Positions 1-19,202 of a stretch of 64,000 nt of DNA are shown one piece after another (the stretch's first letter is position 1; each line of letters starts with the position of its first letter). Both the position numbers and the translations under genes were made by a program. Source of the stretch: Sphingopyxis sp. L1A2A (GTDB lineage: Bacteria; Pseudomonadota; Alphaproteobacteria; Sphingomonadales; Sphingomonadaceae); contig NZ_SCOT01000015.1 of assembly GCF_005502465.1 (NCBI RefSeq), forward strand, positions 1 through 64,000, written 5' to 3'. The notes under the pieces were generated by a model. The model made no database searches. It was not told the DNA's origin and saw nothing but the letters and a program-made list of their open reading frames with translations.

Positions 1-77
1 TTTTTTTAGTGGTACGTCGCCCGCCCACATCAACACGTAAGGAGTCGTCGGCAGAGTCAGATGGTTATAAGAGACAG
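1..77 (+). other. Illumina Nextera adapter left in the assembly
   Basis: Positions 45-77 follow the Nextera read-1 transposase adapter (tcgtcggcag... ending ataagagacag) with one substitution and a local swap. Positions 37-44 read gtaaggag, which is the Nextera i5 index S505. Positions 1-36 are a degraded copy of the P5 flow-cell sequence. This is library-construction sequence, not genome, so real sequence begins at about 78. Confidence 0.95.
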
Positions 78-320
78 CACCAGCCCCGCCCCCGCCATCC
101 AGACCAGCGCGGGCCACCAGAAGGCGGGGGTCAGCGGGCGTAACAGCGCGGTGCGCTGCGACACCAGCCAGCCGATCATCGGCACCATCAACAGGCAGTG
201 CGTAAAGGTCGAGCTATGCCACCAGATGCCCGCCATATCGGCAGCATCGCGCCAGAAGATCGTCACGATCGCCGCTGACAGCAGCGCGAGCCCCCCCAGA
301 TGGCGTTGCCATAACGTCAC
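78..320 (-). CDS. xrtA: Exosortase A, N-terminal fragment cut by the contig end
   Basis: Exosortase A is a polytopic inner-membrane transpeptidase-like enzyme that processes PEP-CTERM proteins. Only the first 81 codons are present. They hold hydrophobic segments and the family-like stretch STFTHCLLMVPMIGWL; the Cys/Arg/His catalytic residues would lie in the missing part. The start is GTG at 318-320, overlapping the stop of the upstream glycosyltransferase as GTGA, so the two are translationally coupled. A reading frame can be followed into the adapter, but its last residues (LSLITI) are adapter-encoded. Identity rests on the transmembrane pattern plus the surrounding exosortase-A locus; the truncation is an assembly end, not a pseudogene. 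Confidence 0.8.
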
Positions 321-1528: not shown

Positions 1529-1540
1529 CACCGCTCTCCG

Positions 1541-1608
1541 TCATTGCGAGCGAAGCGAAGCAATCCAGAGCGACGCCACTCTGGATTGCTTCGCTTCGCT
1601 CGCAATGA
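1541..1608. repeat. Palindromic intergenic repeat, family A
   Basis: Perfect 30-bp arms (1541-1570 and 1579-1608) around an 8-bp centre; the arms begin tcattgcgagcgaagcgaag. Related copies lie at 20070-20165 and 34741-34834. It sits between two co-oriented exopolysaccharide genes, so any transcript would form a long hairpin just before the glycosyltransferase ribosome binding site. Confidence 0.9.
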
Positions 1609-1632
1609 CGATGGGACTGGTAACAACCGCCT

Positions 1633-2700: not shown

Positions 2701-3557
2701 GCCGCGGTGCGCCACGGCTGCGCGCGCTGCTGCTGCGCCGGCAGCAAGGCGTCGGCGCGGGTCCATTCAAAATCGGCGAGCAGCTTCTTCAGCTTGCCCG
2801 CCATGGCCGCCAGGCCGCTGTAATGGCGTATTTTCGATTTGATCGGCGCTTCGGCAACACGCGGCTGGCCGGGGTCGATCTCCCACGGGTGGAAATACAG
2901 GATCGCCGGATGCCCTTCTTCGTTCATCCGCGCGATCGCCCAGCGCGTAAAGCCATAGGGCAGCATCCGCATAAAGCCGCCGCCGCCCGCCGCCAGCGTC
3001 CGTCCGGCAAAGCGGGCCGTCGTCACCGGCCATTCGACCAATTCGCTGTCGGGCAACGGCCGCCAGGCATGGCGCGGGCTTTGCGGCCAGCCATAATGGT
3101 CGTGGACCACCGGCGCGACGCTCGACGAATAGGCATAGCCCTGTTCGGCGAGCACCACATGCGCCCATGGCGTGCGCGTATCGACCGAAAAGCTGGGCGC
3201 GCGATAGCCGCGCACCGCGACCCCGCCCAGATCCTGCAGGATCGCCTGCGTCTTTTTGAGGTCCGCGGCGAATTCATCGGCGGTCAGGTTGAACACGCGC
3301 TGATGGTCATAGCCGTGGCTGGCCAGTTCGTGCCCCGCCGCGACGATGCGCTTGATCAATGCCGGATAGCGTTCGGCAACCCAGCCGAGGGTGAAGAAGG
3401 TGCCGGTCGCGCCCGCATCGGCAAAAATCTGCAGCACCGCGTCACAATTTGCCTCGACCCGGCATTCGAGGTTCGGCCAGTCGGCGCGGTCGATCGTGCG
3501 CTCAAAGGCGCCGACCTGGAACCAGTCCTCGACATCGACCGACAGGCCGTTCTGCAT
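2697..3557 (-). CDS. Polysaccharide deacetylase, exosortase A locus type (TIGR03006 family)
   Basis: A 286-residue NodB-family carbohydrate esterase predicted to remove N-acetyl groups from exopolysaccharide. It opens with LSVDVEDWFQV, the first metal-binding Asp motif of the PEP-CTERM subfamily, then GTFFTLGWVAERYP and the histidine metal motif HELASHGYDHQ (about residues 91-101). The ending includes ILYFHPWEIDPGQP, another family signature. No signal peptide is visible, as usual for this subfamily. ATG at 3557 has AGGTGAG 5 nt upstream. It is followed directly, with a 4-nt overlap, by the FemAB-like gene. Confidence 0.92.
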   Translation of the reverse strand: MQNGLSVDVEDWFQVGAFERTIDRADWPNLECRVEANCDAVLQIFADAGATGTFFTLGWVAERYPALIKRIVAAGHELASHGYDHQRVFNLTADEFAADLKKTQAILQDLGGVAVRGYRAPSFSVDTRTPWAHVVLAEQGYAYSSSVAPVVHDHYGWPQSPRHAWRPLPDSELVEWPVTTARFAGRTLAAGGGGFMRMLPYGFTRWAIARMNEEGHPAILYFHPWEIDPGQPRVAEAPIKSKIRHYSGLAAMAGKLKKLLADFEWTRADALLPAQQQRAQPWRTAA

Positions 3558-3602
3558 CTTTTCTCACCTTCATCGACCGGATAGCCGATTTCGCGTCCGC
3601 TG

Positions 3603-4874
3603 TCAGGCTGCCCAGGTCCGCGACGTGGCCGGGTTCGGCGCATTCGCGGGATCGCGCTCGACCCATTCGATCAGCAGGTCGAGCACGCGGCGCAGCGCGG
3701 CGTCCTGTTCGACCAGCCGCGTTTCGAGCGAGGCGATCTGCGCTTCGAGCGCGGCGAGATGTTCGGGATCGATCGCAGGTGCTGCCGGGGTGTCCACCAC
3801 CGCGGCGGGCATCAGTTCCAACAGCTCGTCGGCGGTCGGATCGGGCGGGGTCAGCGTCACGACCGGCGCCGGTTCGTCGGGGACGGCAAACGGGCCGCGG
3901 CCATCGGCGACCGGCGCGGCGGCGCGCTGCGGCCATTCGAGCGCGGTTTCGTTGGCGGGGGTCGGCGCGGCGAAGGGTGCCGGCGTCGGCGCAACCGCGG
4001 CGGCGGCGGCGGCAACCACCTCCTCGACCGGCAGCGGCGCCAGCGTCGACGCATCGATGCCGCGATCGGCCTCGATCTCGGCGACCACCGAGCGGACATT
4101 CTGCGCCGTGATCCGGTGCATCTGTTCGACCGCGCCATAGAGCAACAGGCGGCTGACCAGCACGTTCAGCTTGCGTGGCACGCCCTCGCTATAATCAAAG
4201 ATTTCCTCGAACGCGTCGGGGCTGAAGCTGGGGTTGCCCGTCCAGCCGACCTTGCCAAGGCGGTGAAGAATATAAGGCTCGACCTCCTCGGGCTCCATCG
4301 GGTCCAGGTGATGCGTCGCAATTACCCGCTGGCGCAATTGCTCCAGCGTCGGCGAATGGAACAGGGTCTGGCGAAATTCGGGCTGGCCGAGCAGGAAAAT
4401 CTGCAGCAGCGAATGGCCGCCAAGCTGGAAGTTCGACAGCATCCGCAGCTCTTCGAGCGCCGAGATCGCCAGATTCTGCCCTTCGTCGACGATCAGCAGC
4501 GTCCGTTTTCCGGCGCGCGCCTGTTCGCGCAGATACTGCTCCATCGACCGCAGCAGTTCGGCCTTGCTTTGCTCTTCCCACTCGATGCCGAACTGTTCGG
4601 CGACCAGGCGCAGCAGATCGTCGCCCTCGACCTGCGTCGACACCAGCTTGACCGCGGTCAGGCGGTTGGGGTCGATGGTGTTCATCAGATGGCCGACCAG
4701 CGTCGTCTTGCCCGCGCCGACGTCGCCGGTGATGACGATAAAGCCCTCGCCCTGCGCCAGGCCATAGCCCAGATAGGACATCGCCTTGCGGTGGGTGCCG
4801 CTTTCAAAATAGAAATGCGGGTCTGGCGTCAGCTGAAACGGACGCCCGGTGAAACCATAGAACTGATCGTACAT
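3603..4874 (-). CDS. Exosortase A-associated ExeA-like ATPase (TIGR03015 family)
   Basis: A 423-residue AAA ATPase of the ExeA/GspA type found in PEP-CTERM loci. It starts MYDQFYGFTGRPFQLTPDP; Walker A is GDVGAGKT (about residues 50-57) and Walker B is LLIVDEGQNL (about 120-130). The last 140 residues are Ala/Pro/Val-rich and probably disordered, ending in a short coiled segment. I chose ATG 4874 because family members begin at this motif, although the frame stays open to 4964. It lies between the outer-membrane protein gene and the deacetylase and may power assembly or secretion of the polysaccharide; that role is inferred. Confidence 0.9.
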   Translation of the reverse strand: MYDQFYGFTGRPFQLTPDPHFYFESGTHRKAMSYLGYGLAQGEGFIVITGDVGAGKTTLVGHLMNTIDPNRLTAVKLVSTQVEGDDLLRLVAEQFGIEWEEQSKAELLRSMEQYLREQARAGKRTLLIVDEGQNLAISALEELRMLSNFQLGGHSLLQIFLLGQPEFRQTLFHSPTLEQLRQRVIATHHLDPMEPEEVEPYILHRLGKVGWTGNPSFSPDAFEEIFDYSEGVPRKLNVLVSRLLLYGAVEQMHRITAQNVRSVVAEIEADRGIDASTLAPLPVEEVVAAAAAAVAPTPAPFAAPTPANETALEWPQRAAAPVADGRGPFAVPDEPAPVVTLTPPDPTADELLELMPAAVVDTPAAPAIDPEHLAALEAQIASLETRLVEQDAALRRVLDLLIEWVERDPANAPNPATSRTWAA

Positions 4875-4896
4875 CGCTGTTATTCCCGTTGCTTGG

Positions 4897-6612
4897 TCAG
4901 AAGTTGTAACGCAGTCCCACCAAAGCTGAACCAATAAGCTGGCTGTTGAAGCCGTCCTGATCAAAGGCGTTGAGGCTGGCCGCCGCGGTGCCGGTCAGCC
5001 CGCGCCAGAAGCGCCGCGCATAGGCCGCCGACAGCCCCGCCGACTGGACATCCCCCGCCCCCGGTGCCCCATTGTCGAAATAATTGACATACCCCGAAAG
5101 GCTGAGGTCCGAATCGACGTCGAGCTGGCGCCCCGCCGACAGGAACAGATAATAGCTTTCGTCCTTGATCCCGTTCAGGCTGGCGATCGGCGACAGCAGC
5201 GGCGCCAGCAGCTTGCGCTGGTCATAACCGATCCCGACGCCATAGCTCCAGCCCGCAAAGCGCGAGGCGATCGTCGCTTGGACCCCGCGGCTGCGATATT
5301 GCGCCGAGGTCGCGTTGCCGAGTTGGTTGCTCAGGCACCCGCCGCCCTCCTGCCCGAACACGCACGGGTTGATATTGCCGCCAATCGGGTTGCGCGTCGG
5401 GTCGAACTGCGTCGGCAGCGCCGCCAGCCCGCCCGACAGCCCGCGGCCCAGGCTCGACAGCCCGTCATAAACGCCGACCTGGATCGTCGTCGCATGGTCG
5501 GCGCGATAGGCAAAGCTGCCGGTATAGATGGTGTCGCCATAACGGCGGCCGACGCGCGCCGTCGCCGAAGTACGGCGGCTCGGCTGCCACATCACCCCGG
5601 CGTCCCAGATCAGCCCGTCGGTGTCGAACGACAGCTGGCGCGGGGTCGATTTATCAGTGATGAAGCGACCGTTCGCGTCGCGGACGGGTACGCCGTTCGC
5701 ATCAACCACCGGATCGCGCTGGCCGATTTCGATATCCTCATAGCCAACGCCGCCCAGCAGCGCGACAGTCGGCCCGATCGGCATCGTCACGTCGGCGCGG
5801 GCATATTTGCCCTCGAACCTTTGGTCGAGCTGGCTCGCATCCTCGCGCTCATAACCGCCCGACAGCTGCCAACCGAACGGCAGGTCGCCCGGCCGCGCCC
5901 CGACGCTGGCCCATGCGACATGGTTGGTCGAGCTGTCGAAAATATCCTGCGGCTGGCTGCCGGGCGCCAGGATCGCCGGCTCGTCGACATCGACCTTGGT
6001 ATAGCCAAAGCGATAGCCGGCGCCGACATCAAGCCCGCCGATGCGGCGCGCAAAAGTCGGCCCGGCGTAAACCGAGTAGAGGTTCGCGACATTGCTGGCG
6101 TCGCCAATGAACAGGCCGCTATCGGCACCCTGGCCGTCGGCGCGGGTGCGGGTGGCGAGCGCGCCGCCCTCCAGATTAAGCCCGCGCGCCACCTCGATCC
6201 GGCCGCGCGCCAGCCCGCTGATCGTGTCCGAATCGCCGCTGTCGCCGCCCCAGCCGAAACGATGTTCATAACGCAGCGTCGCCGCCAGTTCGGCGCGGTT
6301 GGTGACGATCGCGGCATCGATGCCGACCGCGACATTGGTATAGGTCAGGACGTCGCCGCCGTTCTTCAGATCGGCGGTGAGCACCTGGCCGACCTCCAGA
6401 TAGGGGCTGACATCGACCTGGCGCTGGCTGCGGCGCGCTTCGGCGCGCTTTGCCGAACGGCCCGGTTCGGATGCCGGGGCACTGGTTGACGGCGCATCGC
6501 CGCCGCTCGATCCCGGATCGCCCGAAAATTGGGCCTGCGCGCCCGTCGCGGTTCCGGCGAGCAGCAACGCGGCGAGCGCGCTCGCCGGTCGCAAGATTGT
6601 GGTGGTGCGCAT
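4897..6612 (-). CDS. Exosortase A-associated outer-membrane barrel protein (TIGR03016 family)
   Basis: A 571-residue exported protein: a signal peptide (about residues 1-29, ending GTATGAQAQ) is followed by a low-complexity Ser/Pro segment and then long runs of alternating polar/aromatic beta strands. It ends in ...ALVGLRYNF with C-terminal Phe, the BAM-recognised signature of outer-membrane barrels. Proteins of this size and position in PEP-CTERM loci are the TIGR03016 group, presumed to form the outer-membrane part of polysaccharide export. The ATG at 6612 shares one base with the stop of the tyrosine kinase gene (TGATG), so translation is coupled. The frame extends to 6702, but the signal peptide fixes the start. 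Confidence 0.82.
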   Translation of the reverse strand: MRTTTILRPASALAALLLAGTATGAQAQFSGDPGSSGGDAPSTSAPASEPGRSAKRAEARRSQRQVDVSPYLEVGQVLTADLKNGGDVLTYTNVAVGIDAAIVTNRAELAATLRYEHRFGWGGDSGDSDTISGLARGRIEVARGLNLEGGALATRTRADGQGADSGLFIGDASNVANLYSVYAGPTFARRIGGLDVGAGYRFGYTKVDVDEPAILAPGSQPQDIFDSSTNHVAWASVGARPGDLPFGWQLSGGYEREDASQLDQRFEGKYARADVTMPIGPTVALLGGVGYEDIEIGQRDPVVDANGVPVRDANGRFITDKSTPRQLSFDTDGLIWDAGVMWQPSRRTSATARVGRRYGDTIYTGSFAYRADHATTIQVGVYDGLSSLGRGLSGGLAALPTQFDPTRNPIGGNINPCVFGQEGGGCLSNQLGNATSAQYRSRGVQATIASRFAGWSYGVGIGYDQRKLLAPLLSPIASLNGIKDESYYLFLSAGRQLDVDSDLSLSGYVNYFDNGAPGAGDVQSAGLSAAYARRFWRGLTGTAAASLNAFDQDGFNSQLIGSALVGLRYNF

Positions 6613-7634
6613 CACGCGCCTCCCTGTCCGTAATAGGTGCCGAAGCGGCGGCCGCCCGGCGAATATTTCACCCCGTTGAGGAGCAGCTGGATATGCGGAC
6701 ACGCGCCCATCAGGCCGATCGCGTCGCGCAGCGCAGATTCCAGTGTTTCGTCGGCGCGCACGACCATGATCGTCTGCCCGACATGCCCGGCCAAAACGGC
6801 AGCAGGCGACGCCGCCAGCACCGGCGGCGAATCGATGATCAGGATGCGGCCCGGCACGCCCTGCTCAAGCTGCGCGAGCAGCGTCTCGGTCCGCGCCGAA
6901 GCGAGGAGTTCGGTGTCGTGCATATGGCCGGTGCCCGCGGGCATGACCTTCAGCCCCGGAATATCGGTCTGGATCAGGCAATCGCCAAGCGGCAGGTGCG
7001 GATCGGCAAGCGCGTCCATCAGGCCGGGCCCGTCGTCCAGCCCCAGCGTTTCGAGCACGCTCGGCTTGGCGATATCGGCGTCGATCAGCAGCACGTCATG
7101 ATCGGCCTCGACCGCCAGGCTGAGCGCCAGGTTGACGGCAGAGAAGGTCTTGCCTTCGCCCGGATTGGCCGATGCGATCAGCACGCGGTGCCCGCGCGGC
7201 AGGATCGGACGATTGCCGACGCCGCCGAAATTGCGGATCAGTTCGCGCTTCACAATCCGATATTCTTCGGAAATGCCGGTGACCGGGGTGCCGGGCACGA
7301 TCATCCCGCGCGCTGCGAGCCGCGCCCGCTCGATGGTGCCCTGACGCGCCGGGACGACCGCAGGCGCCGCCTTGGCAACGTCCTTGCGCGGCGAAGGCTT
7401 TGGCGTCGGCGCGGTTTCGACAACCGGTGCGGCCTCCACGACCGGATCCAGGATTTCGGCGTGCGGCGCTTCGATTATCGGTTCAGCCTTGGCCCGCCGC
7501 GCCTTTTTGGGCGGTTCGGGGGGCAGGTTCGATACGTCGATCGTCGGCGCATTGGCGGCGGGATCGAGGCCGAACATATCGGCCGCGCGTTCGAGGAGCG
7601 AGGGCGGGCGCTTGACTTTGCGTTGGTCGTTCAT
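6612..7634 (-). CDS. Exosortase A-associated tyrosine autokinase (TIGR03018 family)
   Basis: A BY-kinase-like protein of about 340 residues controlling exopolysaccharide polymerisation together with the chain-length protein upstream. It has a basic N-terminus, a Pro/Ala-rich linker (about residues 45-110), Walker A ANPGEGKT near 160, Walker A' LLIDADIAKP near 190, and a short tyrosine-containing tail (RRFGTYYGQ). Start: ATG 7634 has GGGGGA 7 nt upstream; a GTG at 7652, overlapping the upstream stop as GTGA, would add six residues and cannot be excluded. It lacks the transmembrane part found in Wzc, which here is a separate protein. Confidence 0.88.
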   Translation of the reverse strand: MNDQRKVKRPPSLLERAADMFGLDPAANAPTIDVSNLPPEPPKKARRAKAEPIIEAPHAEILDPVVEAAPVVETAPTPKPSPRKDVAKAAPAVVPARQGTIERARLAARGMIVPGTPVTGISEEYRIVKRELIRNFGGVGNRPILPRGHRVLIASANPGEGKTFSAVNLALSLAVEADHDVLLIDADIAKPSVLETLGLDDGPGLMDALADPHLPLGDCLIQTDIPGLKVMPAGTGHMHDTELLASARTETLLAQLEQGVPGRILIIDSPPVLAASPAAVLAGHVGQTIMVVRADETLESALRDAIGLMGACPHIQLLLNGVKYSPGGRRFGTYYGQGGA

Positions 7635-7648
7635 GTCATCGTCCCCCG

Positions 7649-9196
7649 TCACGCAACCATGCCGCGCTGGATGAATTCGGCGACCAGCAACAGGGCGTAG
7701 AGGCCAACCAGCGCGCCACCGCCGCTCGCCAGCCAGACGAGCCGCTTGCGCCGTTCGACATGGCGTTCGGGGGTCACCACTTCAGTGATCGATCCGATCA
7801 CCGGCAAGCCGCTGGCGCGCTCCAGCTTGCCCGCGGTCGCATAGCTGGTGCGAACCTGGCCAAGGCCAAAGGCGACACCGACGCCGCCGCCGATCCCGGC
7901 GAGCAGGACCAGGGTCAGGAACAGCGGCCGGTTGGGTGCCGCAGGGCTGGTCGGCTTCGATGGCGGATCGAGCAGCTCGATCTTGATCGCGTCGGTTTCG
8001 GTCTGCACGTCGCCGCGCATCCGCACCTGTTCCCGCTGGCCGAGCAGCTTGTCATATTGCGCCTTGAACGCGGTATATTCGCCGTTGATCCGGTCATATT
8101 CGGCGGCGATGCCGGGGTTCTGAATCTGTTGGCTGGTGATCCGCGCGATGTCGCCGCTAAGCTGCGCCTTGCGCGCATTCAGCGCACTGACCGTCGCCTG
8201 CCGTTCGGCGCGCATCCCGGCGAGCGAGGCATAGGCCGGGTTCTGCGAATTGCCGGCGCCACCGCCGCCCGTGCCTTCGCGGTCGGCCATGGCCTTCAGC
8301 GATGCAATCTGGCTTTTCAGCGCCATGACGTCAGGGTGCGCGTCGGTCAGCCCGCGGGCGCGCATCGACGACAATTCATTCTGCGCCCCGGCCAGCTGCT
8401 GCCGCGCGACGCCGCCGCCGACGCTGCCCATGCCGGGGACATTGATCGTCGCGGGGGTCGAGGCAAGCTGGCCGTTGGCGGCCGCCAGTTGGGCCTGCGC
8501 CGCCACCAGCTGCGAATCGATCTGGCCGAGTTCGGCGCGCGCCGCCTCGACCCGCTGCGCCGGCGATCCGGCGCCGCCGGGGATCAGGCCGATATTCTGC
8601 GCCTCGAACGTCGCGCGGCGGGCTTCGACTTCGCGCAGCGCCTTTTCGCGGTCGGCGATCTGCGAATCGAGGAATTTCAATCCCTCGCGGGCGTTCATCC
8701 GGCCACCACGCAGTTGATCGTCGCGGAACACGGTGATCAGGCTGTCGAGCACCCCGGACGCCAGCTTGGCATTGTCGGCGTCCGACAGGCTGCCGACCCC
8801 GACCGCCGAGGTGATTTCAAAAATATTGTCCTGCTGCGGGATGACCTTGATGCTCTTTTGCAGCATCGCGACCGCGCCGGCCTTTTCGCGCTCGCCCGCC
8901 CCGGCGGGCAGCAGGCCGGTGGTCGCCGCAACCTTTTCCAGATTGCGCGCGCTGGTCAGCGTTTCGCGGATCTGGTCGATCTGCTGGCGCCCGCCATAGG
9001 AACCGCCCTGGGCGTCGTCGGGCAGGATTTCGTTGACGTCGACCAGCAATCGGGCGCGCGAGTCATAGCGGTTGGGGATCGACGCAATCGCCAGCCAGCC
9101 GAGGATGCAGATTCCCCACGCCACCGCCAGCACGAGCCACCGGCGCGTCCAGACGCTGTGCAGCGCCACCCGGAATTCGTCGTAAAGGCTGTTCAT
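7649..9196 (-). CDS. Exosortase A-associated chain-length determinant protein (TIGR03007 family)
   Basis: A 515-residue Wzz/Wzc-type polysaccharide co-polymerase of the inner membrane. A transmembrane helix lies at about residues 19-38 (LVLAVAWGICILGWLAIA), then a long periplasmic region rich in Ala/Gln coiled coil (about 160-400), then two hydrophobic segments near the C-terminus (about 425-447 and 485-505). It regulates chain length and works with the cytoplasmic kinase encoded immediately downstream. The start ATG 9196 is 50 nt from the export gene, so the two are probably one operon. Confidence 0.88.
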   Translation of the reverse strand: MNSLYDEFRVALHSVWTRRWLVLAVAWGICILGWLAIASIPNRYDSRARLLVDVNEILPDDAQGGSYGGRQQIDQIRETLTSARNLEKVAATTGLLPAGAGEREKAGAVAMLQKSIKVIPQQDNIFEITSAVGVGSLSDADNAKLASGVLDSLITVFRDDQLRGGRMNAREGLKFLDSQIADREKALREVEARRATFEAQNIGLIPGGAGSPAQRVEAARAELGQIDSQLVAAQAQLAAANGQLASTPATINVPGMGSVGGGVARQQLAGAQNELSSMRARGLTDAHPDVMALKSQIASLKAMADREGTGGGGAGNSQNPAYASLAGMRAERQATVSALNARKAQLSGDIARITSQQIQNPGIAAEYDRINGEYTAFKAQYDKLLGQREQVRMRGDVQTETDAIKIELLDPPSKPTSPAAPNRPLFLTLVLLAGIGGGVGVAFGLGQVRTSYATAGKLERASGLPVIGSITEVVTPERHVERRKRLVWLASGGGALVGLYALLLVAEFIQRGMVA

Positions 9197-9246
9197 CGGT
9201 TGCGATCAATCCTTGGGAGATGGGTTTAACGGGCGGTCGGTCTGGG

Positions 9247-9903
9247 TCAGAACATGCTTTCGGGGATGATGATGACATCGCCGGGCTGCAACCGCACATT
9301 GGCCTTGATATCGCCGCGCTTGATCAGGTCGTTCAGCCGCAGGCCAAATTCCTGCTGCTTGCCACTGCCTTTGTCGAAACGGACGAGTCGTGCCTTGTTT
9401 CCAGCGGCATATTCGCCCAGCCCGCCGACTGCAATCATTGCGTCGAGCACGGTCATGTTGGCGCGGAACGGAATCGAGGCGGGTTTTTCGGTCGCGCCGA
9501 CGACGCGCACCTGCTGCGAAAAGGTGCTGTTGAACGTCGTCACGATCACGCTGACAATCGGATCGGTGATATATTGGCTCAGCTGGAGCTTGATGTCCTG
9601 CTGCAACATCGTCGGGGTTTTGCCGACCGCGGGCATGTCGGTGATCAGCGGGGTGGTGATCCGGCCATCGGGCCGCACCTGCACCTTGCCGCCGAGTTCG
9701 GGGTTGCGCCACACAAAGATCTGCAGCTCGTCGAGCGGGCCGATGATATATTCCTCGCCCGGTCCCTCCTGATTTTGCACGAAATTCGCGCTGGGCAGCT
9801 GCGGCGCGCTGCTGCCGGCGCCGACGCAGCCTGCCAGCGCGGTCGCCGCGATACCGGAAACGAGCGCGGCGCGGGCGACGCGAAGCGAGGAGAACGAAGC
9901 CAT
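9247..9903 (-). CDS. Exosortase A-associated polysaccharide export lipoprotein (TIGR03027 family)
   Basis: A 218-residue Wza/OtnA-type periplasmic export protein. The lipobox LAGC (about residues 22-25) marks a lipoprotein signal peptide. It is followed by a Poly_export domain (EEYIIGPLDELQIFVWRNPEL) and a SLBB-like region ending in QPGDVIIIPESMF. ATG 9903 is chosen over TTG 9909: AAAGG lies 10 nt upstream and the lipoprotein signal begins normally. It is the first gene of the leftward exopolysaccharide operon; the 172-bp gap upstream should hold the promoter. Confidence 0.9.
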   Translation of the reverse strand: MASFSSLRVARAALVSGIAATALAGCVGAGSSAPQLPSANFVQNQEGPGEEYIIGPLDELQIFVWRNPELGGKVQVRPDGRITTPLITDMPAVGKTPTMLQQDIKLQLSQYITDPIVSVIVTTFNSTFSQQVRVVGATEKPASIPFRANMTVLDAMIAVGGLGEYAAGNKARLVRFDKGSGKQQEFGLRLNDLIKRGDIKANVRLQPGDVIIIPESMF

Positions 9904-10023
9904 AATCAATCAACCTTTCGAGCCGCCGCCGATCGCCGCAGGCCCATTCGCCGCGACGACAGACTTTGCGTCAGCTTCGTCCTTGCGCGAAAAGGGTGAA
10001 CATAGGGTTAGTCTTGCGGTAAG

Positions 10024-10075: not shown

Positions 10076-11305
10076 TCAGACGAGCATTTCGCCTGCTGGC
10101 CCCTGCCCCAGAAACGCTGCGGGGCTCGCGCTCGCCCCATAGGCCCCCGCCTGAAAGATCGCGATCAGATCGCCGACATCGGCGCGCGGCAGCGCGACCT
10201 GATCGCCCAGCCGGTCAAGCGGGGTGCAGAGGCAGCCGACCACCGAGACGGTCTCGGCGGCCGCGTCGCCGAACCGTCCGGCGACCGCGATCGGATAGTT
10301 GCGGCGGATCACCGTCCCGAAATTGCCGCTCGCCGCCAGCTGGTGGTGCAGCCCGCCGTCGGTGACCAGAAACGTCTCGCCGTGGCTGGTCTTGCGGTCG
10401 ACGACGCGGGTCAGATAGACCCCGGCCTCGGCAACCAGCCAGCGCCCCAGCTCCATCGCAAAGCGGCTGCCCGCCAGCGCCGCGGCCCGCCCGGCAAGCG
10501 TCTCGCCCAGCGCCGCCCCGACCGCCGCGGCATCGACCGCGGTATCACCGGGGAAATAGGGAACCCCCATCCCGCCGCCCAGATTGACCAGCGGCGGCGC
10601 CTGACCAATGGCCTCCGCCAGCCTTGCCGCGAGCGCGACCGTCTGCGCCTGCGTATCGGCGATCGCCGCGGCATCAAGCGCCTGCGATCCCGCGAAAATA
10701 TGGAAACCCTGCCAGTCGGCGCCCGCCGCGATCAGGCGCCGGACCAGCGCCGGAACCTCGGCAGCATCGACCCCGAACGGCTTGGCACCGCCGCCCATCT
10801 TCATCCCCGATCCTTTGAGGTCGAAGTCAGGATTGACCCGCACCGCAAGGCTCGGCGTCAGGCCAAGGCGGCTGGCAATCGACAGCGCGCGGTCCGCCTC
10901 GCCCGCCGATTCCAGATTGAGCGTCGCGCCCGCGCTGATCGTCGCTTCGAGTTCACGGTCGCGCTTGCCGGGGCCGGCAAAGCTGATGTCGCCCGCCGGC
11001 ATCCCGCTCGCGAGTGCGGCCTTAAGCTCGCCGCCCGATGCGACGTCGAACCCGTCGACCAGCCGCGCCATATACGCCAGCAACGGCGCATAGGGGTTCG
11101 CCTTCATCGCATAATGAAGCTGCACCGCGGCGGGCATCGCGGCACGCCACTGGGCTACCCGCGCGGTCAGCAGCGCGCTGTCATAAACGAACAGCGGCGT
11201 ATCGCCCGCCATGTCGGCCAGCGTATCGGCGCGATCGCCGCCGATCAACAACATGCCATCCTCGTCGGCGGCATAGCCGGGCGGGATCGGACCATGCGGC
11301 TTCAT
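10076..11305 (-). CDS. PLP-dependent decarboxylase, exosortase A system-associated (TIGR03099 family)
   Basis: A 409-residue fold-type III PLP enzyme (alanine racemase/DapDC-like barrel plus beta domain). The PLP lysine is in LHYAMKANPYAPLL (about residue 60); the phosphate-binding glycine run is NLGGGMGVPYF; the second catalytic Cys motif appears as VVGCLCTPLD; the ending has FQAGAYGASASPAAFLGQ. Homologues decarboxylate diaminopimelate, ornithine, lysine or arginine; the substrate here is unknown. ATG 11305 overlaps the ligase stop as ATGA, so ligase and decarboxylase are coupled. Together with the ACP and hydrolases on the other side it belongs to the conserved exosortase-associated accessory cluster. 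Confidence 0.9.
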   Translation of the reverse strand: MKPHGPIPPGYAADEDGMLLIGGDRADTLADMAGDTPLFVYDSALLTARVAQWRAAMPAAVQLHYAMKANPYAPLLAYMARLVDGFDVASGGELKAALASGMPAGDISFAGPGKRDRELEATISAGATLNLESAGEADRALSIASRLGLTPSLAVRVNPDFDLKGSGMKMGGGAKPFGVDAAEVPALVRRLIAAGADWQGFHIFAGSQALDAAAIADTQAQTVALAARLAEAIGQAPPLVNLGGGMGVPYFPGDTAVDAAAVGAALGETLAGRAAALAGSRFAMELGRWLVAEAGVYLTRVVDRKTSHGETFLVTDGGLHHQLAASGNFGTVIRRNYPIAVAGRFGDAAAETVSVVGCLCTPLDRLGDQVALPRADVGDLIAIFQAGAYGASASPAAFLGQGPAGEMLV

Positions 11306-12834
11306 GCCGCCACCGCCCGCGCCCAATCGGCGGCGATCGCCACCCGATCGAGCTTGCCATTGGGATTGCGCGGCAGCGCATCGCGCCATTCGATCGCCTG
11401 CGGCTGCATGAAATTGGGCAGGTTCTGGCGCAGCCAGGCGCTCAGCCCCGCTTCGTCGGCGACCCCGCCCTTGCCGCGCACGATCAATATGATCGCCGCG
11501 CCCAATCGCGCATCGGGGACCCCGAACGCGACGGCTTCAAAAATGAGCCCCGACGCGACCGCGACATCTTCGACCTCGGTCGGGCTAACGCGGTTGCCCG
11601 CGGTCTTGATCATCGCATCGTCGCGCCCGACGAAATAGAGCAGGCCATTGGCGTCACGGCGCACCGTATCGCCCGACCACACCGCCATCCCGCCATATTC
11701 CGACGCGCGCGGCGCCGGTCGGAACCGCTCCGCCGTCCGCTCCGCATCTTGCCAGTAGCCCTGCGCCACCAGCGGCCCGCAATGCACCAGCTCGCCCGGC
11801 TCCTCGTCGGCGGTGATCGTCCCGTCGCGGCGGCACACCAAAATTTCGGCATGCGGGATCGCGCGGCCCATCGAGGTCGGATGGTCGGCGACATATTTTG
11901 GCTCAAGATAGGTCGAGCGAAACGCCTCGGTCAGCCCGTACATCGGATAGATGTCGGCGTTCGGAAAGGTCGCAGCCATCGCGTCGATCAGCGACGGCGT
12001 CAGCGCCCCGCCGCTGTTGGTCAGCCGCCGCAAATGCGCCGCCGCCTCTGCGGGCCAGTCGCTTTCGACCAGTTGCACCCAGAGCGGCGGCACCCCGGCG
12101 AGCGTCGTCGCCTGGTGCCGCGCCACCGCCTTCACGACGTCGCGCGGGGTCAGATAATCGAGCGGCGCGACCGCGGCGCCCGCAAACCAGCTCGAAAACA
12201 GCTGGTTCTGCCCATAGTCGAAACTCAGCGGCAGCACCGCCAGCACCCGGTCATCGGGCGTAATCTTCAGATAGGAAGCGACGCTCTCGGCCCCCAGCCA
12301 CAGATTGGCGTGGCTCAGCATCACCCCCTTCGGCCGCCCGGTCGATCCGCTAGTGTAGAGGATCGCCGCCAGATCGTCGGGGTCAGCCGATGACGGCGGC
12401 AGTTCCCGCCCGCCCGAATCGATCGCTACCTCGGCCACCGTCAGATCCTGCACCGCGCAATCCTGGGGCCGCCCCTCGCCCAGCATATCCGCCCGCGCGC
12501 TATTGGTGATCAGCAATTTCGCGCCGCTATCGGCCAGGATATGCGCGACCTGTGGCCCTTTCAGCAACGGATTGACCGGCACATGGACCAGCCCCGCGCG
12601 CGCCGCCGCCAGTGGCATCAGGCACGCCAGCCGCGTCTTCGCGCTCCAGTTCGCCACCCGCTCGCCCGGCGCGCCCGCCTGCGCCAGCAGCCACGCCGCC
12701 AGCCGCCCGACCCCCGCGTCAAGTTCAGCAAAAGTCAGCCCTGCCTCACCGATCAGCAAGGCAGCCGCCTCCGGCGCGCCAGAGCGGGCGAGATGATCGA
12801 TCGGTCGCGAAGATGGCTTTTCGGGCGTGGTCAT
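11302..12834 (-). CDS. AMP-forming acyl-CoA ligase, exosortase A system-associated (TIGR03098 family)
   Basis: A 510-residue adenylate-forming enzyme of the ANL superfamily, which activates a carboxylic acid as acyl-AMP and passes it to CoA or a carrier protein. The AMP-binding motif is YTSGSTGRPKGVMLSH (about residues 160-175); the A5 motif is MYGLTEAF; the hinge A8 region is YFVGRDDAMIKTAGNRVSPTEVE; the catalytic Lys is in NPNGKLDR near the end. With an ACP gene 1 kb away, loading onto that ACP in the manner of DltA/DltC is an attractive inference. No clear Shine-Dalgarno sequence precedes the ATG, and only 35 bp separates it from the divergent acetyltransferase gene. Confidence 0.9.
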   Translation of the reverse strand: MTTPEKPSSRPIDHLARSGAPEAAALLIGEAGLTFAELDAGVGRLAAWLLAQAGAPGERVANWSAKTRLACLMPLAAARAGLVHVPVNPLLKGPQVAHILADSGAKLLITNSARADMLGEGRPQDCAVQDLTVAEVAIDSGGRELPPSSADPDDLAAILYTSGSTGRPKGVMLSHANLWLGAESVASYLKITPDDRVLAVLPLSFDYGQNQLFSSWFAGAAVAPLDYLTPRDVVKAVARHQATTLAGVPPLWVQLVESDWPAEAAAHLRRLTNSGGALTPSLIDAMAATFPNADIYPMYGLTEAFRSTYLEPKYVADHPTSMGRAIPHAEILVCRRDGTITADEEPGELVHCGPLVAQGYWQDAERTAERFRPAPRASEYGGMAVWSGDTVRRDANGLLYFVGRDDAMIKTAGNRVSPTEVEDVAVASGLIFEAVAFGVPDARLGAAIILIVRGKGGVADEAGLSAWLRQNLPNFMQPQAIEWRDALPRNPNGKLDRVAIAADWARAVAA

Positions 12835-12869
12835 CGGCTGTTAGGAGTGCAGTGATAGAGGGCGGCATC

Positions 12870-13865
12870 ATGCAAGGGAACGGTGAACATCACGCTAATG
12901 ATGAGCGGTTACCCGCCGCAGCGCGCGCGGCGGGCTTTGCCTCGCCCTTCGACCGCGCGGCGTGGTTCGACCTGCTCGAGGCGCATGGCTTTGCTCGGCA
13001 AGGCCGCATCGACGCGCGTGGCCGTGCAGGCGGCGTCACCGCGTGGCTGCCGCTGCGCACCGAAAAGCCGGGCGAGGTCGCAGGCCTCACCAACTGGTAC
13101 AGCTTTGCAATCCGTCCGCTCTACGCCGGTGACGGCGACCGCGGCGCCGCCTTACAAGCGCTGTTCCGGGGTCTCCGCCGCTCCGCCGCGCGGCTAACGC
13201 TCTGCCCCGTCAGCGACCCCAACGACCTCACCGCGGCGCTCCGCGCCGCAGGCTGGTGGGTCAAAGCCACCCCCGCTGGCGACCGCCACTGGCTCGACCT
13301 CGGCGACATGGATCATGACGCCTGGTGGGCCAGCCGCCCCGGCGCGCTGCGCAATACGGTCCAGCGCAAAGCCAAAAAGGGCATCGTCGACATCCAGTTG
13401 CTCACCGAATTCGACCCTGGCAGCTGGGCCGCGTACGAACGCATCTACGCCGCGAGCTGGAAGCCCGAGGAAGGCCATCCCGCTTTGCTCCGCGCCTTTG
13501 CCGAGGCCGAAGCGGCGGGCGGCCGCCTGCGGATGGGCATCGCGCGTATCGACGGCATCCCTGTCGCCGCGCAATATTGGACCGTCGAGGACGGCACCGC
13601 CTTCATACACAAGCTCGCGCATGTCGAGGACAGCCTAAAAGCCTCGCCCGGCACACTGTTGTCGGCAGCTTTGTTCCGCCATGTCATCGAAGTAGACGGG
13701 GTCAAGCGCGCCGATTTCGGCACCGGCAACGACGGTTACAAACGCGACTGGATGAACCGCCACGACCCGCTGTGGCGGATCGAGGCTTTCAATCCGTCGC
13801 GCCCCGCGGCATGGGGACCGGCACTAAAGGCCTTTGCCCGCGCCCTGCTGAGGAAAGAATCGTGA
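12870..13865 (+). CDS. GNAT/FemAB-fold acyltransferase of the exosortase A accessory cluster
   Basis: A 331-residue protein resembling the Acetyltransf_6 (CelD/BcsL-like) group. Its middle contains WWASRPGALRNTVQRKAKKG and its C-terminal half AAQYWTVEDGTAFIHKLAHV followed by FGTGNDGYKRDWM, the usual pattern of this fold (acyl-donor loop and closing strand). ATG 12870 is supported by GAGGG 7 nt upstream; a GTG at 12852 is less well placed. The stop overlaps the GTG of the ACP gene (GTGA). A role transferring a carrier-bound acyl or aminoacyl group is inferred from this coupling. Confidence 0.75.
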   Translation: MQGNGEHHANDERLPAAARAAGFASPFDRAAWFDLLEAHGFARQGRIDARGRAGGVTAWLPLRTEKPGEVAGLTNWYSFAIRPLYAGDGDRGAALQALFRGLRRSAARLTLCPVSDPNDLTAALRAAGWWVKATPAGDRHWLDLGDMDHDAWWASRPGALRNTVQRKAKKGIVDIQLLTEFDPGSWAAYERIYAASWKPEEGHPALLRAFAEAEAAGGRLRMGIARIDGIPVAAQYWTVEDGTAFIHKLAHVEDSLKASPGTLLSAALFRHVIEVDGVKRADFGTGNDGYKRDWMNRHDPLWRIEAFNPSRPAAWGPALKAFARALLRKES

Positions 13866-14128
13866 CCGAACCCGATACCGTCGACGCCACCCTCCGCGCC
13901 CTGCTCGCCGACGTCCTCGGCCTCGGTGAAGACCGCGCCGCCGCGCTGACCGACAACAGCGGCCTGTTCGGCGCGCTGCCCGAATTTGACTCGATGGCGG
14001 TCGCGACGGTGCTGACCGAAATGGAGGATCGCCTCGGCATCCTCATCGACGATGACGAGATCGATGGTGAAATCTTTGAAACCTACGGCAATTTGCTCGC
14101 CTTCTCGCTGCGCAAGGTGACCGATTGA
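13862..14128 (+). CDS. Acyl carrier protein of the exosortase A accessory cluster
   Basis: An 88-residue acidic four-helix carrier protein. The phosphopantetheine serine is in LPEFDSMAVATVL (about residue 42), matching the DS[LM] motif. The GTG start at 13862 overlaps the acetyltransferase stop, with AGGA a few bases upstream; the TTG/ATG-started longer frame is a shadow. It would carry the acyl group made by the ligase on the opposite strand and be handled by the acetyltransferase or hydrolases. It is distinct from the fatty-acid ACP because of sequence and context. Confidence 0.88.
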   Translation: MTEPDTVDATLRALLADVLGLGEDRAAALTDNSGLFGALPEFDSMAVATVLTEMEDRLGILIDDDEIDGEIFETYGNLLAFSLRKVTD

Positions 14129-14150
14129 AGGCCGCACCTTCCTCTCTATA

Positions 14151-14229
14151 TCGTCATCCCGGCGAAGGCCGGGGTCTCGCCGTCGCGAATTACGCCACGA
14201 TGGGATCCCGGCCTTCGCCGGGATGACGA
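14151..14229. repeat. Palindromic intergenic repeat, family B
   Basis: Imperfect long inverted repeat; left arm starts tcgtcatcccggcgaaggcc and right arm ends with its complement at 14229. It lies between the ACP and hydrolase 2 genes and would form a stem close to the hydrolase 2 ribosome binding site. A relative is at 22578-22651. Confidence 0.85.
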
Positions 14230-14243
14230 CAGAGGGCAGGTGC

Positions 14244-14930
14244 ATGGCAATGCCCACCCCTGAACATATCCTCCGCATCACCCCCACGCGCACCCCGCGC
14301 GCCACGATCCTGTTCGTCCCGCCGCTGTTCGAGGAAGCGAATCGCAGCCGCCGCACGCTTGTCCTCGCGATGCGCGCGCTCGCCGCCGATGGTTTCGCGG
14401 CGCAGCTCCCCGACCTCCCGGGCCAGAACGAAAGCCTCGTGCCGCTCGCCGAGGTCGATCTTGCCCGCTGGCAAGATGCGCTCACCAAGACTGCCGCAGC
14501 CATCGACGGCCCGCTGATCGTCGCCTCGCTGCGTGGCGGCACGCTGATCGACCATAGCGCGAACGCCGCGGCACGGTGGCGCCTCGCTCCCGTCAGCGGC
14601 GCCTCGCTGCTCCGCACCCTGATGCGCGCGCGGGTCGCCGCCGATCGCGAAGCCCGGCTGACCTCGTCGCTCGACAGCCTGCAAGCCAACGCCGTTACCG
14701 CGCCACTGCTCATCGCGGGCAATCTACTCTCGCCCGCGATGATGGCGCAGCTCGGCAGCGCCGAGGCCCGACCCGTCGCCCCGCTCCGCACCGTCACCCT
14801 TGGCAGCGGCGCCGAGGCCATCGCCGGCACGCCGCTATGGCTGCGCGCCGAACCCGGCGAGGACGCCGCAATGGCCGCAGCGATCGCCGCCGACATCGCC
14901 GCCTGGAGCCAGACATGCGGCATCAGCTGA
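14244..14930 (+). CDS. Hydrolase 2, exosortase A system-associated (TIGR03101 family)
   Basis: A 228-residue alpha/beta-hydrolase-like protein. The N-terminal FVPPLFEEANRSRR and the strand-turn LPDLPGQNES are characteristic of this exosortase-linked group; the nucleophile-elbow position reads VASLRGGTL, so it departs from the usual GxSxG. ATG 14244 has GAGGG 7 nt upstream. The first frame start at 14223 would lie in the palindromic repeat. It overlaps hydrolase 1 by 16 nt. The substrate is unknown; acyl-ACP or thioester handling is plausible from neighbours. Confidence 0.85.
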   Translation: MAMPTPEHILRITPTRTPRATILFVPPLFEEANRSRRTLVLAMRALAADGFAAQLPDLPGQNESLVPLAEVDLARWQDALTKTAAAIDGPLIVASLRGGTLIDHSANAAARWRLAPVSGASLLRTLMRARVAADREARLTSSLDSLQANAVTAPLLIAGNLLSPAMMAQLGSAEARPVAPLRTVTLGSGAEAIAGTPLWLRAEPGEDAAMAAAIAADIAAWSQTCGIS

Positions 14931-15688
14931 GCTTTCCCTGCGAAGGCGCCGCGCTTGCCGCAACCCTCGACGAAGCGCCCGGCACCACCGGCCTGCTGAT
15001 CGTCTCGGGCGGCAATGAGATCCGCAGCGGCGCGCATCGCGGCATGGCGATGCTGGCCGCGCGCATTGCCGCAGGCGGTCACCCCGTGTTCCGCTTCGAC
15101 CGCCGCGGCATCGGCGACAGCGAGGGCGACAACGGCGGTTACGAAAGCAGCGCCCCCGACATCGCCGCCGCGATCGCTGCCTTCCGCAGCACCGCGCCGC
15201 AGCTTACCCGCATCATCGCCTTCGGCAATTGCGACGCCGCCAGCGCGCTGCTGCTCCACCAGCCGCGGGCGCTGGACGCGCTGATCCTCGCCAATCCGTG
15301 GACTTACGAAAGCGACGACAGCGACGAAACCGACGAACCCGCGCTGCCCCCCGCCGCCGCCATCCGCGCACGCTATCTGTCGCGGCTGACCGATCCCAAA
15401 AGCCTGCTCCGGCTGCTCAAGGGCGAGATCGACGTCCGGAAGCTGGTCCGCGGCCTATCGGCGCTCGGGCGCAAACCCCCCGCCACGGCCCCCGGCAGCC
15501 TACCCTGTCCGGCAACGATCCTGCTCGCCACCGGCGACCGGACGGCGCAGGCATTTATCGAGAATTGCGATCCGGGCGCGGTGCCAGTCGAACGCCTCGC
15601 CAGCGCGTCGCACAGCTTCGCGGGCGACGATGCCGAGTGGCTCGCCCGGACGATCCTGAAAGCGTTGGGTCGGGGAAGCACAGCCTAG
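14915..15688 (+). CDS. Hydrolase 1, exosortase A system-associated (TIGR03100 family)
   Basis: A 257-residue alpha/beta hydrolase. Family features are LIVSGGNEIRSGAHRGM near residue 30, FRFDRRGIGDSEG (about 60-72), and an elbow IAFGNCDAAS, where Cys replaces the usual Ser nucleophile. Near the end it has the histidine region SASHSFAGDD. The start at 14915 lies inside hydrolase 2 (16-nt overlap), so both are co-translated. A Cys nucleophile suggests a thioesterase/acyltransferase-like mechanism, an inference. The gene ends in a 4-nt convergent overlap with the next gene. Confidence 0.85.
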   Translation: MRHQLSFPCEGAALAATLDEAPGTTGLLIVSGGNEIRSGAHRGMAMLAARIAAGGHPVFRFDRRGIGDSEGDNGGYESSAPDIAAAIAAFRSTAPQLTRIIAFGNCDAASALLLHQPRALDALILANPWTYESDDSDETDEPALPPAAAIRARYLSRLTDPKSLLRLLKGEIDVRKLVRGLSALGRKPPATAPGSLPCPATILLATGDRTAQAFIENCDPGAVPVERLASASHSFAGDDAEWLARTILKALGRGSTA

Positions 15689-17867: not shown

Positions 17868-19202
17868 ATGATGCGATTCTGGCTGATCACCCTCACCGTG
17901 CTGATCCTGTTCGCGCCGACCGCGGCCGAAGCGCGCAAGGTCGCGCTGGTCATCGGCAACAGCGATTATGCCAACACCAGCCGCCTCGCCAATCCGGTCA
18001 ACGACATCAGGATCATCGCAGCCTCGGCGCGGCAAGCCGGGTTTGACGATGTCACCATCGCCGCCGACCTGTCGGTCAACGACTTCCAGAAAGCGATGCG
18101 CGATTTTCGCGCCAAGGCCGACGGCGCCGATGTCGCGATGGTCTATTTCGCCGGGCACGGGATCGAGGCGCAGGGCAAGAACTGGCTCATCCCCACCGAC
18201 GCGCAGCTGAAATCGGACCTCGACCTCCCTTATGAGGCGATCAACCTCGACCGGCTGATGGAATCGGTGTCGGGGGCGCAGATCCGCATGGTCGTGCTCG
18301 ATTCGTGCCGCAACAATCCGTTCGGCCGCTCGTGGCGATCGGGGACGCGCGCGGTGGTCAACGGGCTGGCGGCGGTCGAGGCCGACGATGTCCTCGTCAT
18401 CTTCGCCGCAGCACCAGGCCAGACCGCCGCCGACGGCACGACGGGCAATTCGCCCTTCGCAACCTCGCTCGCCAAGCGCCTGCCGCAGCCCGACGTCCCG
18501 GTGCAGCTGCTCGGCGGGCTGATCCGCGACGATGTCCTCGCGGCGACGGGCGGCAGCCAGCGGCCGTTTGTCAGCGCCAGCATCACCGGCACCCCGGTCT
18601 ATCTCGTCCCGCGCGCTGTGCCGACCGCGCCCAAGCCATCGGGCGACCGCAGCGGGCTCGAGGAGCTGCTGTGGAAGGGCGCGCTCGCCGAAAACAACGT
18701 CCGCGGCTTCAGCGCCTATCTCGCCGAATTTCCGGCGGGCAAATATGCCGGGCAGGCGGGCGACAATATCAGCCGGCTACAAAAAACGCCCGGTGCCGTG
18801 ACCGCACCCGTCACGATGACCGCGATGACCGAACCGGCCGCCGCCGCCCGCCCCGCGGCGCGCAAGTTCATCCTGACCAACGTCCGCGTCGACTGCGTCA
18901 AACTGACCGGCCGCCTCGGCCTCGGCCTGCCCGACCAGCTGTTCCTGCGCTTCAACACCGGCCAGCGCTTTCCCGAGGGCAAGAGCGACATTTATTCGAT
19001 CAAGAAGGGCGAAAGCTGGGCGGTGAACCAGAGCTTCGCGTTCGATCAGCCGGTCAGCCTGCAACTGCGCGAATTCGACGACATCGGCGGCAGCGACAAT
19101 ATCGGAACGATCGACCTGGGCGAAACGCCGGGGACGTTCACCCGCACGCTCGACGGCGATGCGAGCGATTATCGGGTGACCTATACGCTGACGGTGGGGT
19201 GA
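17868..19202 (+). CDS. Exported caspase-like (peptidase C14) protein with C-terminal beta domain
   Basis: A 444-residue protein with a signal peptide (about residues 1-22) and a caspase p20-like domain: KVALVIGNSDY at 24-34, the catalytic His in YFAGHG (His97) and catalytic Cys in VLDSCRNNPF (Cys147). After the catalytic domain (to about 245) comes a linker and a C-terminal part (about 325-444) predicted all-beta, starting RKFILTNVRVDC. Bacterial orthocaspases of this type are exported; the targets are unknown. AGAGAGG lies 8 nt before the first ATG. It probably shares a transcript with the methyltransferase. Confidence 0.88.
   Translation: MMRFWLITLTVLILFAPTAAEARKVALVIGNSDYANTSRLANPVNDIRIIAASARQAGFDDVTIAADLSVNDFQKAMRDFRAKADGADVAMVYFAGHGIEAQGKNWLIPTDAQLKSDLDLPYEAINLDRLMESVSGAQIRMVVLDSCRNNPFGRSWRSGTRAVVNGLAAVEADDVLVIFAAAPGQTAADGTTGNSPFATSLAKRLPQPDVPVQLLGGLIRDDVLAATGGSQRPFVSASITGTPVYLVPRAVPTAPKPSGDRSGLEELLWKGALAENNVRGFSAYLAEFPAGKYAGQAGDNISRLQKTPGAVTAPVTMTAMTEPAAAARPAARKFILTNVRVDCVKLTGRLGLGLPDQLFLRFNTGQRFPEGKSDIYSIKKGESWAVNQSFAFDQPVSLQLREFDDIGGSDNIGTIDLGETPGTFTRTLDGDASDYRVTYTLTVG

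Follow-up and report, generated by a model that had tools for sequence, protein, structure and literature searches.

Our analysis of a 64,000-nucleotide stretch of DNA from Sphingopyxis sp. L1A2A (positions 1 to 64,000 of contig NZ_SCOT01000015.1, hereafter the window, which is the start of contig C6 in a genome of 3.7 Mb) suggests that a six-gene cluster beside its exosortase A (XrtA) exopolysaccharide locus is built around a conserved three-protein module that likely makes a beta-aminoacyl thioester on an acyl carrier protein (ACP), most likely beta-alanyl-S-ACP from L-aspartate, a reading to which we give a probability of about three in four. The adenosine monophosphate (AMP)-forming ligase of family TIGR03098 would load L-Asp through its beta-carboxyl group to give isoaspartyl-S-ACP, as its pocket residues and characterised relatives suggest, and the fold-III pyridoxal phosphate (PLP) decarboxylase of family TIGR03099 would then strip the alpha-carboxyl on the carrier to leave beta-alanyl-S-ACP, here with characterised relatives as our guide. 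We predict this sequence of intermediates because the three core proteins match the vicenistatin (Vin) and AFC-BC11 (Afc) systems part for part. All six genes lie at positions 10076-15688 adjoining the XrtA locus, as a first-pass annotation of the window had it, and its proposal of a carrier-based pathway is very likely right for the ligase, the ACP and the decarboxylase. The cluster of six is also real, but the invariant core of the pathway extends to only three of them.

The ligase scores 654 bits against TIGR03098 (cut-off 592), and among the best 80 of at least 593 named loci its nearest relatives are mostly from Sphingopyxis, at 82-90% identity. When residues 195-340, the segment that holds the substrate pocket, were compared with the PDB, two VinN sequences were the sole matches below E 1e-8. 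Aligned with VinN, the loop stretch is gap-free and the equivalents of Asp230, Ser299 and Arg331 are kept (pocket positions are given in VinN numbering throughout; Asp206 and Arg306 of the ligase correspond to Asp230 and Arg331). In VinN, whose beta-methyl-aspartate substrate is activated at the beta-carboxyl, Asp230 is proposed to read the amino group and Ser299 and Arg331 the alpha-carboxyl (PMC7756342), and beta-amino acid pockets have been described as marked by a shorter loop and bulkier residues (PMC11253843). The window ligase has Asp230, the Ser299/Arg331 pair, a shortened beta13-beta14 loop and a bulky residue, Tyr, at position 231. The Arg331 equivalent, the hydroxyl residue at 299 (Ser or Thr) and an alignment without gaps thus point to a beta-amino acid pocket; we predict that the ligase takes an aspartate-like amino acid, activates its side-chain (beta) carboxyl and loads it on the ACP. 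These positions are well conserved over 36 rows of the TIGR03098 family, which represent 35 distinct genes (L067 and L082 are one gene) and 35 of the 39 genomes matching at E<=1e-150 (G053, G044, G039 and G160 gave no locus and were left out): the Asp230 and Arg331 equivalents each occur in 36/36, position 299 is Ser in 29/36, including the window ligase, and Thr in 7/36, and position 231 is Tyr in 31/36 and Ala in the other 5. Neither the Asp230 nor the Arg331 equivalent was found in any of the seven paralogous AMP ligases of the same genome. One subgroup (L039, L041, L042, L046 and L047) combines Ala at 231 with Thr at 299, and perhaps has a different substrate. A locus from a Sphingomonadaceae metagenome-assembled genome (MAG), L121, carries a second TIGR03098-like ligase (491 bits) at ~3479, ~6.5 kb from the first.

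The decarboxylase (566 bits against TIGR03099, cut-off 478) probably acts on a carrier-bound aminoacyl group rather than on a free amino acid. BtrK was its top match in the PDB at 224 bits, versus 130 bits for the best LysA, and the published substrate of BtrK is glutamate held on the carrier BtrI (Glu-S-BtrI) (PMC7857480). The two enzymes have an LCTP motif in common where LysA has CET, and throughout the TIGR03099-type rows of our alignment (22/22) CT(P/S/T) replaces the LysA CET, which exchanges Glu for Thr; moreover, our tree joins BtrK to the TIGR03099 rows, apart from LysA (support 94/97). The earlier suggestion that this enzyme turns an amino acid into a free amine therefore probably does not hold, as BtrK is its nearest relative. 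Additional support for the order of steps comes from studies on related systems, in which VinN loads 3-methylaspartate on VinL and decarboxylation by VinO comes after loading (PMC11284099), and in which the VinN-type AfcQ activates L-Asp and not beta-Ala and loads AfcK, where AfcP decarboxylates the group to beta-alanine in vitro (PMC12186527).

Neither the ACP nor the GNAT protein encoded next to it matches an NCBIfam family over cut-off, and both are placed by their Pfam domains (Table 1). The ACP has Ser44 within a DSM motif whose D43 and S44 are invariant in 88/88 aligned rows. An AlphaFold model of the GNAT protein (predicted local distance difference test score, pLDDT, 91) shows the double-GNAT FemX fold of FemABX/MprF aminoacyltransferases, its nearest folds being FemX (Z 20.0, root-mean-square deviation 4.0 over 289 residues), the streptothricin peptide synthase Sba18 (Z 19.0) and MprF (Z ~16), which bears out the FemAB-like fold assigned to it at first pass. 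This likeness suggests that the protein is built like an aminoacyl transferase, and we predict that it uses the ACP-bound group; where present it might, more tentatively, hand on beta-alanyl units to acceptors that bear an amine or a hydroxyl.

In the Sphingomonadales loci surveyed here (the best 80 introduced above, with each gene counted only where the locus had room for it) the ligase is accompanied by the decarboxylase in 77/77 and by the ACP in 73/73. The FemX-fold transferase is present in 62/73 and a polysaccharide export gene in 65/74, and the two hydrolases of the cluster are both kept in the same 59/73 loci and both missing from the same 14/73. The invariant core is therefore three genes: ligase, decarboxylase and ACP. 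As the gene order recurs across the named Sphingomonadales loci, and less completely across the phylum, the cluster stands far beyond chance. The overlaps noted at first pass are also as described, 4 nucleotides each, with ATGA between ligase and decarboxylase and GTGA between the GNAT protein and the ACP, and the ATGA at the end of the ligase gene is found in 66/77 related loci. Beyond the order, the ligase, the ACP and both hydrolases recur in six loci (L068, L070, L073, L074, L076 and L077), with the decarboxylase adjoining the ligase in all of these except L068. A diverged group (L079-L087) has mostly no recognisable ACP, and its ligase and decarboxylase homologues, mostly below cut-offs (L081 excepted), form outer branches of the family.

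TIGR03099 is found over cut-off in 85/147 genomes of the order, and in a phylum-wide set of 398 genomes it occurs in 30 and XrtA in 35, with both in 27. The association with exosortase A claimed for these families thus stands as a co-occurrence, but it is not complete, for the core also occurs in genomes without detectable exosortase A. Four loci (L129, L135, L157 and L158, the first two from MAGs that may be incomplete) have the trio alone, without the other cluster genes, in genomes that give no exosortase A match at E<=0.001; we also observe that L169 and L145 keep the trio with parts of the polysaccharide locus gone. The presence of the trio in genomes without detectable exosortase A indicates that the core is not strictly an exosortase accessory, and we rejected strict exosortase dependence on account of those four.

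Several observations weigh against the proposed aspartate-to-beta-alanyl module. In a full-length PDB search the ligase matched the second A domain of linear gramicidin synthetase best (280 bits), followed by another peptide synthetase (189 bits) and only then VinN (175 bits), and five of the 36 family rows have Ala at position 231, where VinN has Phe. CTP also occurs in 6knh, which by its chain name is a probable diaminopimelate decarboxylase, and the placement of BtrK in the tree is unsure because it is a long branch beside another long branch. Outside the order, L072 shows no ACP in its 20-kb stretch and L069 neither decarboxylase nor ACP in a stretch of the same length, its decarboxylase lying far away. 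The donor of the FemX-fold relatives is aminoacyl-tRNA, so that an ACP donor is an extrapolation from them. It is also possible that the substrate is 3-methylaspartate or another beta-carboxylated amino acid; we prefer L-Asp only since we recognised no dedicated substrate gene in our family scan of 15 window proteins (annotation up to ~16.2 kb) and since Asp is common.

Three other accounts of the enzymes themselves have to be set against these data. The first-pass annotation reasoned by analogy to DltA/DltC, in which the ligase would attach an alpha-amino acid through the alpha-carboxyl for transfer, and a free amine would arise separately from the decarboxylase; the ligase superfamily is indeed common to both systems and an Asp at the amino-binding position is common to many A domains, but the DltA model reaches just 153 bits (cut-off 476), Arg331, Ser/Thr299 and the gap-free VinN alignment indicate a beta-amino acid pocket, and the nearest decarboxylase is BtrK. 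We consider this account very improbable, and the closest working analogues are VinN/VinL/VinO, AfcQ/AfcK/AfcP and BtrK/BtrI instead. Even harder to credit is that the decarboxylase has nothing to do with the ACP and acts on diaminopimelate, ornithine or lysine. LysA (TIGR01048) is admittedly the second-best NCBIfam model of the decarboxylase, yet its 231 bits stay below the cut-off of 298, the Glu of CET is Thr in every TIGR03099-type row, and a separate housekeeping LysA, with 428 bits over cut-off, lies on contig C23; a housekeeping LysA or polyamine decarboxylase was rejected on the score below cut-off, on the separate LysA and on the CTP that replaces CET. Finally, the trio might start a small secreted metabolite, for example a lipopeptide of the N-acyl-(beta-alanine)n kind, such as AFC-BC11 or the bolagladins. 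AFC-BC11 builds (beta-Ala)3 by iterative loading with the same enzyme logic (PMC12186527), but our scan of 15 window proteins found neither a second ligase nor a KAS III or desaturase, and an occurrence in more than half of the genomes of the order with conserved gene order is unlike a typical metabolite cluster, so this outcome seems improbable to us.

For what the beta-alanyl-ACP module is used is less certain, and two roles, which are not exclusive, deserve consideration. In the one we hold tentatively and at somewhat less than even odds, the FemX-fold transferase would put beta-alanyl groups on an XrtA-linked exopolysaccharide, lipid or protein and so change surface charge, or even supply the amine acceptor of exosortase A. 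Consistent with this, TIGR03099 and XrtA occur together in 27 of the 398 phylum genomes, the FemX-fold gene overlaps the ACP gene and is retained in most loci, and a FemAB protein (TIGR03019) and a polysaccharide deacetylase are encoded within the same locus. However, TIGR03099 over cut-off is missing from 8/35 XrtA genomes, so XrtA as such can do without it; the transferase is missing from 11/73 loci with room for it; and the trio persists in the four genomes without an XrtA match, where neither transferase nor hydrolases stand beside it (only the surroundings of the trio were examined for a transferase).

The other role, which we regard as possible but rather unlikely, is that the trio, in lineages that lack aspartate 1-decarboxylase (PanD), supplies beta-alanine for pantothenate and coenzyme A by a route independent of that enzyme, with release by hydrolase 1 or another thioesterase. 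With TIGR00223 at E<=0.001, a search that finds the gene in 8/14 control genomes, panD was detected in 0/30 phylum genomes that have TIGR03099 over cut-off versus 197/368 others, in 0/11 such genomes outside the window's own family (f1), in 0/85 TIGR03099 genomes of the order and in 0/32 named ligase-bearing genomes, a set that overlaps the earlier ones; the window genome likewise gave no panD match. Two entries, G527 and G030, show the same exosortase match and are apparently the same genome. Lineage confounds this contrast, though, for the XrtA genomes are also without panD except 1/35, and all 20 panD matches of the order fall in one family, f5. Among 49 hand-picked genomes, which are not a random draw, panC was present in 14/15 examined genomes with the module, and in family f8 it is missing from 8/9 genomes of genus g42 without TIGR03099 and present in G008 and G063, which have it. 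Against this, panC was also matched in 19/28 tested genomes lacking both panD and TIGR03099 over cut-off (f1 4/4, f5 5/5, f45 3/3, f2 4/4 with G022 partial, f8 2/10, namely G021 and G041, and f9 1/2, namely G158), which implies that other beta-alanine sources are common and that panC without panD is by itself no pointer to the trio. G468 has the module and no panC, and G107 has panD together with a near-cut-off TIGR03099 match (468 bits). In the window's family, G083, G121, G131 and G133 have panC and neither panD nor TIGR03099 over cut-off. The trio without its usual neighbours in the four genomes lacking an XrtA match fits a housekeeping role, although the trio-only genomes give no match over cut-off for hydrolase 1. 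Alongside diverged TIGR03099 homologues panD occurs in 6/16 genomes, which counts against the pantothenate role and suggests that the diverged L079-L087 homologues may serve metabolite pathways.

Published data bear on the same question. The enzyme abbreviated PYD3 is taken here to be beta-ureidopropionase. In one survey, Table A2 has 22 Sphingomonadales/Erythrobacter rows in which aspartate decarboxylase (ADC) is listed in none, pantothenate synthetase in 21/22 and PYD3 in only 2, but the aminotransferase AAM is listed in 13/22 (PMC7142369), the last of which speaks against the pantothenate role. The minimal media of a gap-filling study include vitamin mixes, so a beta-alanine requirement could not become visible in them (PMC5764234). 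At present we can only speculate that both roles are joined, such that a carrier route from Asp to beta-alanine replaces PanD in Sphingomonadales and several proteobacterial lineages while in XrtA genomes the beta-alanyl group also decorates the surface, possibly giving exosortase A its amine acceptor; this combined scheme we think unlikely.

The two hydrolases were described at first pass as having a Cys at the nucleophile site of one and no canonical GxSxG in the other, and both observations are borne out by their relatives. Hydrolase 1 (191 bits against TIGR03100, cut-off 168) has C106 in 70/70 rows and D208 and H233 in 69/70 each, the remaining row being a frame cut by the locus end; by sequence it finds weak matches only in the PDB (E 0.004 to 0.009), and its triad makes it a candidate thioesterase or acyltransferase. 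Hydrolase 2 scores 57 bits against TIGR03101, far under the cut-off of 203, so that of the four families TIGR03098 to TIGR03101 assigned to the cluster the first three are reached over cut-off and the last is not, although the operon position and Arg elbow of hydrolase 2 agree with those of its relatives. Its structure model (pLDDT 92, Z 17.8) shows the alpha/beta hydrolase fold. The nucleophile elbow carries an invariant Arg (R104, 70/70 rows) and no Ser or Cys, which accounts for the absent GxSxG and suggests that hydrolase 2 is probably no true hydrolase and instead a non-catalytic partner. Together, the Cys hydrolase and its Arg-elbow partner might hydrolyse or edit the thioester and could release free beta-alanine, a step we propose with less assurance than loading and decarboxylation. 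We rejected the idea that the hydrolases are obligatory pathway thioesterases, given their absence from 14/73 loci and the lack of an over-cut-off TIGR03100 match in G523-G527 and G532. The start of hydrolase 2 may be the ATG at 14244.

The features of the window are collected in Table 1. The XrtA locus encodes a glycosyltransferase (TIGR03087), the FemAB protein, the deacetylase (TIGR03006), an ATPase (TIGR03015), an outer-membrane protein, a tyrosine kinase, and chain length (TIGR03007) and export (TIGR03027) proteins, of which two fall short of their cut-offs, the outer-membrane protein (TIGR03016) and the kinase (TIGR03018). Between the ACP and hydrolase 2 genes we observed a perfect inverted pair of an 18-base repeat, CGTCATCCCGGCGAAGGC, at 14152-14169 and 14211-14228; the window has 8 copies of it with <=3 mismatches versus 0.3 expected, and the pair is perhaps an element like the repetitive extragenic palindromic (REP) sequences. 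Further along, a reading frame at 17868-19202 (+) encodes 444 residues whose N-terminus by eye resembles a caspase.

Table 1. Positions, strands and supporting evidence for the cluster and its neighbours in the window.
Feature	Position	Strand	Evidence
Exosortase A fragment, profile positions 3-77	69-290	-	cut by contig end; remainder on contig C20
XrtA exopolysaccharide locus	317-9909	-	family matches: TIGR03087, TIGR03019, TIGR03006, TIGR03015, TIGR03007, TIGR03027
TIGR03099 fold-III PLP decarboxylase, BtrK-like	10076-11305	-	TIGR03099 over cut-off
TIGR03098 AMP-forming ligase, VinN-type	11302-12834	-	TIGR03098 over cut-off, pocket segment match to VinN
PF13480 GNAT protein, FemX/MprF fold, predicted aminoacyl transferase	12870-13865	+	Pfam Acetyltransf_6, AlphaFold model
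Free-standing acyl/aminoacyl carrier protein (ACP), 88 aa	13862-14128	+	PF00550 PP-binding
Hydrolase 2, TIGR03101-like, alpha/beta hydrolase fold	14223-14930	+	TIGR03101 below cut-off, fold model
Hydrolase 1, TIGR03100 alpha/beta hydrolase, Cys-Asp-His triad	14915-15688	+	TIGR03100 over cut-off

The reading of the cluster by way of VinN and BtrK turns the TIGR03098-TIGR03101 families into a pathway open to test, for which substrate, intermediate and product are all predicted, and if it is true, chemistry of antibiotic clusters reaches a widespread chromosomal locus. Were the pantothenate role to hold, it would add a second route, on a carrier, to a precursor of a universal cofactor (coenzyme A, by way of vitamin B5) and fill a published gap, since several Sphingomonadales rows of the survey have pantothenate genes and no known source of beta-alanine (PMC7142369); the surface role would in turn offer a candidate for the group attached in the XrtA system. 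That these families have no assigned product, as was stated at first pass, agrees with the open-licence literature, where we found none, nor any paper with the phrase 'exosortase A system-associated' or combining two of TIGR03098, TIGR03099, TIGR03101, 'exosortase A' and 'beta-alanyl', an absence that is not proven beyond open-licence papers. The Vin, Afc and Btr chemistry is already known; that literature did not yield this setting, its distribution or a possible connection to coenzyme A.

Compared with known systems, the ligase, decarboxylase and hydrolase 1 are members of the exosortase A system-associated families TIGR03098-TIGR03101, whose names give no substrate or product. VinN/VinL/VinO of vicenistatin have the same three parts, with Asp230, Ser299 and Arg331 matching and VinO likened by description and not by sequence; however, positions 231/330 are Tyr/Phe in the window ligase and Phe/Lys in VinN, and the Vin genes feed a polyketide synthase, whereas our scan of 15 window proteins found no such synthase. 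Similar to these, AfcQ/AfcK/AfcP of AFC-BC11 from Burkholderia comprise a VinN-type A domain, a single carrier and a carrier-acting PLP decarboxylase, a likeness drawn from their description and not from sequence; the Afc genes belong to a metabolite cluster of 25 genes that also encodes a fatty acyl-AMP ligase and KAS III-like enzymes, whereas here a minimal trio stands beside an exosortase locus (PMC12186527). In the butirosin system BtrK/BtrI/BtrJ, BtrK is the nearest solved decarboxylase to ours and has the LCTP motif in common with it, although BtrK uses Glu-S-BtrI and the predicted substrate here is Asp. BtrJ is an ATP-grasp ligase, and the ligase described here is of the AMP-forming A-domain type. 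PanD, the pyruvoyl aspartate 1-decarboxylase, is an unrelated protein with an unrelated cofactor that takes free Asp as its substrate, and yet its end product, beta-alanine, would be the same.

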